From: an uncultured Lachnospiraceae bacterium
GTDB taxonomy: Bacteria; Bacillota_A; Clostridia; TANB77; CAG-508
DNA: 17,551 nt
Direction: 5' to 3'
Assembly: GCA_947165105.1 (NCBI GenBank)
Contig: CAMUZC010000027.1
Location: forward strand, 1-17,551
Part shown: piece by piece, positions 65 through 15,453 of the stretch
Position numbering within the stretch: the stretch's first letter is position 1
Layout: each line of letters opens with the position of its first letter
Translations under genes and position numbers: made by a program
Notes under the pieces: model-generated
What the model saw: only the letters and a program-made list of their open reading frames with translations
What the model was told of the DNA's origin: nothing
Databases searched by the model: none

Positions 65-203
65 GCAGAGTAATTTGAAGAAATATATTAACATGCAGTG
101 GAGCGCGCAGTTTGGCGCCCCTACCTAATGTCTTTATCGAGACTCCAACGTCAGTAAGCGAACGGAATGTTAATATATTTTTTCAAATGGCTACCTGCAA
201 AAG
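65..203 (+). ncRNA. Structured intergenic RNA element, copy 1 (gatA-gatB)
   Basis: Seen directly: GCAGAGTA (65-72) opens the element. Positions 73-94 pair with 167-188 as a 22-bp A/T-rich stem with one G-U pair. AGTGGAG lies at 97-103 and CGGAA at 163-167. The element closes with GGCTACCTGCAAAAG (189-203), where CTGC 195-198 can pair with GCAG 65-68. Inside the head, 100-106 pairs with 115-121 (one A-C mismatch) and GTCT 130-133 pairs with AGAC 140-143. The GC-rich head contrasts with the AT-rich surroundings. A second copy with the same end and head motifs but a different stem sequence lies at 13597-13848. There is no T-tract, so it is not a simple terminator. It ends 28 nt before the gatB start codon. 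Function unknown; I cannot match it to a named RNA family. Confidence 0.72.
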
Positions 204-13596: not shown

Positions 13597-13848
13597 CTTT
13601 TGCAGGGGGCCGAACAATTTTGCTGATTATGTAACCGCTGAAATATATATTGTTTTATGAGTTCCGCCCCAACTGCGAACTAAGAGTAAGAATCTTTCGT
13701 GCAAGACTGAGTTCGTGCTTTTGGTTTTAGTGTTTTTTGCACGAAATCTTCTAACTCTTACTAGCTTGTCGGTCCCCACCTTAACTCCACTTCATAAAAC
13801 AATATATATTTCAGCAGTTACATAATCAGTAAAATTGTTCTACTCTGC
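13597..13848 (-). ncRNA. Structured intergenic RNA element, copy 2 (porA-porB)
   Basis: This fills most of the 312-bp gap between porA and porB. Read on the minus strand it opens GCAGAGTA (13848-13841) and forms a 49-bp A/T-rich stem (13840-13792 with 13660-13612, 47 of 49 matched). It carries AGTGGAG (13791-13785) and GCGGAAC (13667-13661) at the top of the stem and closes CCCCCTGCAAAAG (to 13597). A second internal hairpin pairs 13681-13704 with 13737-13760 (21 of 24). End and head motifs equal those of the copy at 65-203 while the stems are unrelated in sequence. It ends 25 nt before the porB start codon and has the same sense as the operon. There is no terminator T-tract and no coding potential. 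Function unknown. Confidence 0.75.
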
Positions 13849-13883
13849 GTATTTTTGATTAGATAGGGGAAAGCTGTGTTATA

Positions 13884-15065
13884 TTATTTACGTACTCCTA
13901 AATATCTATAGAAGTCATTTGTTCCGTTATTATTTGCAATTTCAGTTAAATCATTATAAACACTTTCAATGTCTTTTGCTGTTGTGTCACGTCCACCAAT
14001 TCCATAAACATAGTTTACAGTTGGTACTTGAACTTTGTTTACAAACATTGCTGATGTTACATCTTCGAATAAAGCCCCACCAGCACCGTTTAGTGAATCT
14101 GCTTTATCTAAAACTGCAACAGCCTTAACATTTGATAATGCTTTTGCAATTTCTTCAGCAGGGAATGGTCTAAACATACGAATTTTTAATAGACCAGCTT
14201 TAATTCCTTTTTTACGCAATTCGTCAACAACAAATTTTGTTGTACCAGCAGTAGAGTTCATACAAACTATTGCAATTTCAGCGTCATCTAGTTTATATTC
14301 TTCAAAGAATGAATATTTTCTTCCTGTTAATTCTTCAAATTCTTTAGAAACTTCTGCAATAACCTTTTTAGCATTTCTCATAGCTTGAGCTTGTTGATAT
14401 TTATGTTCAAATAAATAACATTGTACATCAAGAGGGCCAATTGCAATTGGTTCTTCTCTATTTAATAAGTAATGTTCTGGTTTATATGTTCCAACAAAAG
14501 CTTTAACTTTATCATCTTCTAATAATTCAATATTTTCAATTGAGTGAGATGTAATAAATCCATCTTGACATACCATTAAAGGTAGTAAAACATCTTTATG
14601 TTCAGCAATTCTATGAGCCATTAATAAATTGTCATATGCTTCTTGATTGTTTTCACTAAATAGCATAATCCATCCAGCGTCACGAACTCCCATCGCATCT
14701 GAATGGTCATTGTGTATATTTAAAGGGCCTGATACGGCACGGTTTACTAATGATAAAACTATTGGCAAACGTAAGCTTGATGCTATATAAATTTGTTCCC
14801 ACATAAATGATAAACCATTAGCAGATGTAGCAGTCATTGCTCTTGCACCTGCAGCTTCAGCACCAATACATGCAGTCATAGCACTATGTTCACTTTCAAC
14901 TGCAACAAATTCTGTATCAACTTGACCATTACTTACGAATGTTGAAAAGTATTGAGGTATTTCAGTTGATGGTGTAATAGGGAAGGCAGCAACAACATCA
15001 GGATTAATTTGTTTCATTGCAATAGCTGCAGCTTCATTACCACTTAAACGTTCTCTAATTCCCAT
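13884..15065 (-). CDS. porA: Pyruvate:ferredoxin oxidoreductase, alpha subunit
   Basis: PorA (393 aa) carries the pyrimidine-binding and CoA-side domains of the enzyme. The start GNEAAAIAMKQINPDVVAAFPITPSTEI contains T31 in the PITPST motif that contacts pyruvate in this family. ESEHSAMTACIGAEAAGARAMTATSANGL and VNRAVSGPLNIHNDHSDAM follow, the last with an Arg typical of the pyruvate pocket. The C-terminal domain (about 255-393) has KIRMFRPFPAEEIAKAL and GIGGRDTTAKDI. Its start is only 3 nt after the porD stop, so the two are translationally linked. Downstream comes the structured element and then porB. Confidence 0.93.
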   Translation of the reverse strand: MGIRERLSGNEAAAIAMKQINPDVVAAFPITPSTEIPQYFSTFVSNGQVDTEFVAVESEHSAMTACIGAEAAGARAMTATSANGLSFMWEQIYIASSLRLPIVLSLVNRAVSGPLNIHNDHSDAMGVRDAGWIMLFSENNQEAYDNLLMAHRIAEHKDVLLPLMVCQDGFITSHSIENIELLEDDKVKAFVGTYKPEHYLLNREEPIAIGPLDVQCYLFEHKYQQAQAMRNAKKVIAEVSKEFEELTGRKYSFFEEYKLDDAEIAIVCMNSTAGTTKFVVDELRKKGIKAGLLKIRMFRPFPAEEIAKALSNVKAVAVLDKADSLNGAGGALFEDVTSAMFVNKVQVPTVNYVYGIGGRDTTAKDIESVYNDLTEIANNNGTNDFYRYLGVRK

Positions 15066-15362: not shown

Positions 15363-15383
15363 TTTAATTTCTCCTTTCTAATT

Positions 15384-15453
15384 TGAGACATTTGGGGACG
15401 GTCTTTTTTTGTCTCATTTTTGAGACAATGGGGGACGGTCTTAATTTGTTTCA
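15384..15453. repeat. Tandem pair of 33-bp palindromic repeats with GGGGACGGTC core
   Basis: Unit 1 (15384-15416) and unit 2 (15421-15453) are each 33 bp, start TGAGACA, contain GGGGACGGTCTT and end TGTCTCA or TGTTTCA, separated by TTTT. Each unit can fold on its own ends, or the inner ends can form an 8-bp hairpin (15409-15416 with 15421-15428). They lie inside the por transcript, 2 nt after the porC stop codon. The core matches the palindrome at 2722-2789 and the fragment at 16121-16134. Confidence 0.82.

Follow-up and report, generated by a model that had tools for sequence, protein, structure and literature searches.

Bacterial miniature inverted-repeat elements (MITEs) are short, carry terminal inverted repeats, are flanked by a target duplication of fixed length, reach high copy numbers, lie mostly between genes and are polymorphic for presence or absence. 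Insertion sequences of the ISL3 family make 8-bp duplications. Among other interspersed repeats, the available text on REP/RAYT palindromes describes intergenic units with a GTAG-like motif (PMC3733652), and that on bcr1 and related repeats of Bacillus cereus describes interspersed sequences of 100–400 bp with mobile traits (PMC6542083). We find that the 17,551-nucleotide stretch analysed here (the window) holds two hairpins which, with a probability of roughly 85%, are old copies of a MITE-like, i.e., non-autonomous and inverted-repeat, transposable element sharing all the MITE traits listed above. The reading draws on inverted repeats, 8-bp duplications and the occurrence of the gatA-gatB copy in one of ten relatives, while the membership of the window copies themselves is suggested by homology to intact copies. 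A literature search by titles and abstract openings returned no description of this element.

Two hairpins in the window and their relatives

The first hairpin (positions 65–203, forward strand) occupies the gap between gatA and gatB and the second (13597–13848, reverse strand) that between porA and porB; both lie in the operon sense, and no ORF of at least 80 aa overlaps either. As the earlier note had reported, both carry GCAGAGTA, AGTGGAG, CGGAA and CTGCAAAAG in this order. In copy 1, the left inner end motif GCAGAGTA (65–72; relatives carry GTAGAGTA/GCAGAGTA) is followed by the 5' arm of the stem (73–94), a type-A head (97–166, AGTGGAG ... AACGGA in alignment A1), the 3' arm (167–188) and the right inner end motif GGCTACCTGCAAAAG (189–203), which is similar to GGCTTATTGCAAAA in elements L299 and L309, both flanked by perfect 8-bp duplications. 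In copy 2, the 5' arm (13792–13840), a type-C head with an inner hairpin (13661–13791, supported by alignment A3 and near full-length relatives) and the 3' arm (13612–13660) succeed one another on the reverse strand; the adjoining 13849–13884 resembles by eye the TTAACACTTTTCACATAACAAAATT stretch of intact copies and is possibly a decayed left outer end. The outer terminal inverted repeats of copy 1 are no longer recognisable, and neither window copy has a target duplication or clear outer repeats.

The stems of the two copies differ in sequence, yet their arms pair, at 22/22 positions with one G-U in copy 1 and with 96% complementarity over 49 nt in copy 2, and the folds far exceed those of dinucleotide shuffles (z-scores of −5.8 and −11.7, respectively, with 0/200 shuffles as good in each case). 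Of the ends and head claimed to be common to the pair, the similarity holds for the end motifs and for the junction of stem and head, but the heads themselves are unlike: type A reads GCGCAGTTTGGCG ... CGTCAGTAAGCGAAC in copy 1 (most copies have CGCCAG), type C GGTGGGGACCGACAAGCTAG ... CGCAGTTGGGG. The earlier note could assign the pair to no known RNA class, and no Rfam family reached its gathering score in the window or in ten loci with further copies; at E-values up to 5, copy 1 had no match and copy 2 had two, both far below the cut-offs.

Two other repeats of the window were observed. Between ferredoxin-like and porG-like genes, positions 15382–15453 carry a 35-bp repeat twice in tandem (TTTGAGACA..GGGGACGGTC..TGTCTCA); each unit forms a hairpin whose loop is GGGGACGGTC. 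Another interspersed-looking palindrome, at 2722–2789, has 31-bp arms, 90% complementary, that contain GGGACGGTTCTC.

What had been taken for a two-copy family is a real family, but a high-copy one, interspersed in the genomes of related uncultured Clostridia from the gut. Counts of the head core GCGCAGTTTGGCG in the genomes of L033–L037 (1–2 Mb each) are 8, 3, 18, 18 and 14, and its reversed pattern is absent from all five. Covariance model R1 was derived from alignment A1, which comprises 22 heads taken from the same five genomes plus copy 1 of the window; it matches copy 1 with 118.8 bits at 75–190, a score that is not independent since copy 1 belongs to the training sequences, and copy 2 weakly (24.4 bits). 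In the five genomes it yielded 13, 25, 29, 32 and 21 matches, including weak echoes that the palindrome gives on the reverse strand. Among 96 genomes (G004 and its relatives), 13 were positive at an E-value of 1e-6, eight of these with at least 12 matches; five of the 13 had supplied sequences to R1 and the other eight had not. The proposed covariance-model scan of relatives thus recovered many further copies, with covarying stems.

The type-C core in its exact form is sparser (5/287 genomes drawn from the order). BLAST with the head of copy 2 found matches in 7 of 13 genomes, including 8 in G002 (7 near full length, 82–90%), 3 in G013 (1 near full length, 83%), 8 in G012 and 26, short and partial, in G014, where each of the 20 fetched regions contains the core with at most 3 substitutions. 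At PorB-related loci (40 examined of the best 80, all from MAGs titled Clostridia, Clostridium, Clostridiales, Clostridiaceae or Lachnospiraceae), one further copy was found in L035 and two in L036, one of them headless. G015 harbors 14 near-identical 161-bp units, each at a different site, which is recent spread. In viral contigs, the end pattern gave 32 matches, judged to be chance, the head pattern 87, none with the stem-base motif, and the C core 2, without hairpin context by eye; plasmids gave no match to the element, and phages a single weak one (query 48–103).

Ends, target duplications and orthologous sites

Intact copies elsewhere are mostly 161–230 bp long and have terminal inverted repeats beginning with GTTAC. 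The pattern GTTACARTTCA is found 149 times in G015 and 56 times in G014 (controls, 5 and 3), and GTTACTGTTTAA 41 times in G015 (control, 1). Several end types can be told apart, with GTTACTGTTTAA and GTTACARTTCAGGTGCCC accompanying type-A heads and GTTACAATTCACAG type-C heads. We collected 39 elements in which at least 9 of 14 end positions match, a few of them wrong end picks. Although picked by inverted repeat alone, 20 of the 39 are flanked by a perfect 8-bp duplication (22 at 7/8 or better), compared with 0/1482 perfect and 3/1482 at 7/8 or better when flanks were mispaired between elements; the picks were blind to the flanks, with pattern variants partly added after the results for the C copies had been viewed. 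Several of the 19 elements lacking a perfect duplication are plainly wrong end picks.

Separate counts were made for the subgroups. A perfect 8-bp repeat is present at both ends of 11 of the 14 G015 units. The scan with end GTTACTGTTTAA returned nine elements of 211–273 bp, six with perfect and three with one-mismatch duplications. L299 and L309 bear, besides their duplications, the inner motifs of the window, GTAGAGTA and TTGCAAAA. For the C-type copies of G014, 5/20 have perfect duplications adjoining GTTACAATTCACAG-like ends; the script tally was 7/38, from which L399 and L419 were dropped because their ends are not GTTAC-like. Elements with perfect duplications measure 161–230 bp, and one with a one-mismatch duplication 273 bp. 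None of the intact elements has room for a transposase gene, and a single genome can contain tens of them.

Two unusual elements were also noted. A 140-bp element (L351:3001-3140) has GTTACTGTTTAA ends, contains the motifs GTAGAGTA and TTGCAAAAG and is flanked by an 8-bp duplication with one mismatch; its tip is a GGGACGGTC loop and no head, so that the same ends carry different tips. Another (L342:1501-1711), flanked by a perfect 8-bp duplication, is a hybrid having one GTTACTGTTTAA-type end and a GGTGCCC-type arm at the other, which suggests recombination between subfamilies.

The orthologous sites point the same way as the duplications. GatB was located in 10/11 genomes, and inspection by eye of the gatA-gatB gap in these ten relatives showed the element in G002 only (L439). 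In G001, with a GatB fragment 96% identical, and in G003 and G014 the gap is short and plain, and the gaps of G013, G006 and G012 contain other repeat-like sequences. Window copy 1 is thus not a conserved leader, and the gap is perhaps a recurrent landing site. By eye, repeat-like sequences of the GGGGACGG and GCACATTGGGGACGTG types were seen upstream of gatB in L440, L445 and L447. Between porA and porB, two loci with PorB proteins of 96% identity differ: L033 has the same ends and outer stem with the head missing, and L034 has no element. Short headless hairpins with the same end motifs (L036:2279-2361 and L033:5922-5975) are probably internal deletions.

As for the mobilising enzyme, four Pfam families of DDE transposases were searched and no parent insertion sequence was found. 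PF00872 and PF12762 were each detected in 0/9 genomes; PF01609 was detected in 3/11, where a check with a narrow pattern revealed no pair of GTTAC ends around the gene, and PF01610 in 2/9, as one broken gene without such ends and one fragment. The former (L452 in G014) is a near-complete ISL3-like gene; the nearby GTTACAATTCA was considered as an element end and rejected, as it sits within the coding sequence of that gene. The parent transposon may be unassembled, because the draft MAGs are interrupted at these repeats, as in six contigs of G015 that stop 53–85 bp past the start of an end sequence.

Paired stems, conserved heads and orientation

Stems of the family differ between copies but stay paired. 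The A-type pair counts are based on 56 of 72 loci, after removal of 13 near-identical G015 copies, the odd or hybrid L342 and L354, and L206. The covariation score is 0.349 versus 0.098 in shuffles, and since none of the 500 shuffles scored as high, the customary criterion would accept the stem as RNA. An RNA helix is expected to change via G.U and, on the strand that is transcribed, to tolerate G.T better than A.C. Yet, in the proximal 20-bp stem of 52 distinct A-type copies, we counted 187 cells in which one Watson-Crick pair had replaced another, 2 G.U, 0 A.C and 2 other; the arms mismatch at 0.4% of positions within a copy and at 25% between copies. The corresponding values for the distal 36 bp are 0.7% and 43%, with slight offsets in length inflating the second figure, and 34/44 distal stems are identical over the 36 bp. 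C-type stems decay equally to G.T and A.C, with 31 G.T, 33 A.C and 173 other in P1 and 9, 13 and 67 in the inner hairpin (others include fixed junction positions). In A/B stems, 41 G.T stand against 26 A.C, with 163 other, a non-significant difference (p 0.086) between copies that are not independent. Given the near absence of G.U intermediates and the equal G.T/A.C decay of C-type stems, stem pairing is not evidence of selection on RNA, contrary to what the earlier note had held. The pattern fits homogenisation of the arms at the DNA level, i.e., their concerted evolution. The available text of PMC8604942 describes arms of yeast inverted repeats homogenised by template switching.

The tips behave differently from the stems: they comprise at least two unlike head types and are better conserved. 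Changes at type-A head pairs amount to 5 Watson-Crick, 19 G.U, 0 A.C and 1 other cells, and at the three core pairs of type C to 48 G.U and 1 A.C (21 sequences, alignment A3, out of 37 C heads), in pairs chosen by RNAalifold, which accepts G.U, and with few independent events. Compared by eye, copy 1 of the window and its ortholog in G002 differ at two positions of the helix, and both changes yield G.U on the head strand. These observations hint that the heads may fold as one strand, either RNA or single-stranded DNA. Sequence comparison relates heads A, B and D to one another. A circular permutation or inversion linking A and C found no consistent support, as the short matches (A5-C3, p 0.006; A5-C5, 0.0046; reverse-complement A5-C5, 0.0034; of 16 comparisons) support contradictory alignments.

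Placement was determined for the 70 of 76 A/B copies with enough flank, using a simple ORF finder (at least 80 aa). Only 1/70 lies inside an ORF. The genes flanking the other 69 are oriented relative to the head strand as −− in 36, −+ in 19, ++ in 9 and +− in 5 cases; for the C copies (n = 38) the counts are −− 25, ++ 8, +− 3 and −+ 2, and for those of G014 alone −− exceeds ++ only by 10 to 7. The head strand is thus usually antisense to the neighbouring genes, and the window copies, both in the operon sense, are in the minority orientation. Such a bias is unexpected for simple cut-and-paste elements; it could arise if sense transcripts are selected against or if replication biases insertion.

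A structured RNA family, cis-regulatory or trans-acting and selected as RNA, would account for the extreme folding of both window hairpins, the covariation and the preference for G.U over A.C in the heads of both types, including the changes in the G002 ortholog. It is difficult to reconcile with the 8-bp duplications flanking the elements, with their absence from orthologous sites of close relatives, with stems that nearly lack G.U intermediates and with a head strand mostly antisense to adjacent genes, and the head counts have the limits given above; we regard it as improbable. We see a slightly smaller chance for an element that moves as single-stranded DNA in the manner of REP/RAYT or IS200/IS605, with an HUH transposase that recognises the hairpin tip. 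The conserved tip, the high copy number and a GTAG-like motif at the stem base (GTAGAGTA) speak for it, as does the strand bias of 36 to 9 and 25 to 8, which replication-coupled insertion would give. Perfect 8-bp duplications in 20/39 elements speak against it, for HUH elements are not known to produce them, and so does size (140–273 bp here versus the 20–40 bp given for REPs in the available text of PMC3733652). That the hairpins are ordinary transcription terminators or recent DNA duplicates matching by chance agrees with their intergenic location but hardly with stems of different sequence, many copies with conserved heads and reversed-pattern controls of 0 in five genomes, and is barely credible.

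Under the preferred reading of a MITE-like element, a DDE-type transposase would act in trans on the inverted repeats and move the elements. Template switching or conversion at the DNA level would copy one arm onto the other, which would let each stem drift in sequence and length while staying paired. The head might fold as a single strand of RNA or DNA and perhaps aid persistence or movement. A bolder and rather doubtful extension is that the heads (at least types A/B/D and C) are compact, structured nucleic-acid modules of a new class, borne on the tips of palindromic transposons that differ in their ends, and needed for spread while the stems and ends of their carrier are freely replaced; such modules could, for instance, act in RNA or single-stranded DNA form by binding a protein of the host or of transposition.

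Comparison with described elements

The family looks like a clean case of strong covariation, normally read as functional RNA, arising at the DNA level, and the scarcity of G.U intermediates and the equality of G.T and A.C provide simple tests usable by RNA-discovery pipelines. Compared with ordinary MITEs, the element is inside out, with the tip conserved and the ends replaceable, and the question becomes what reads the tip. It has 8-bp duplications in common with the ISL3 family, yet the sole near-complete ISL3-like gene found (G014) is broken and has no GTTAC repeats flanking it. As far as the available text of PMC6542083 goes, the mobility of bcr repeats is tied to a TTTAT motif, whereas here GTTAC ends and 8-bp duplications are found. 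REPs, in the available text of PMC3733652, are units of 20–40 bp with stems of 5–13 bp; the present elements, with stems to 47 bp and more and with target duplications, depart in size and duplications from the REP/RAYT definition (a 20–40 bp unit with a GTAG tag and no target duplication). From bacterial MITEs they differ in their conserved tip, their long palindromic arms evolving in concert and their several end types, as well as in having no parent found, and the family is best filed as a MITE-like mobile palindrome variant.
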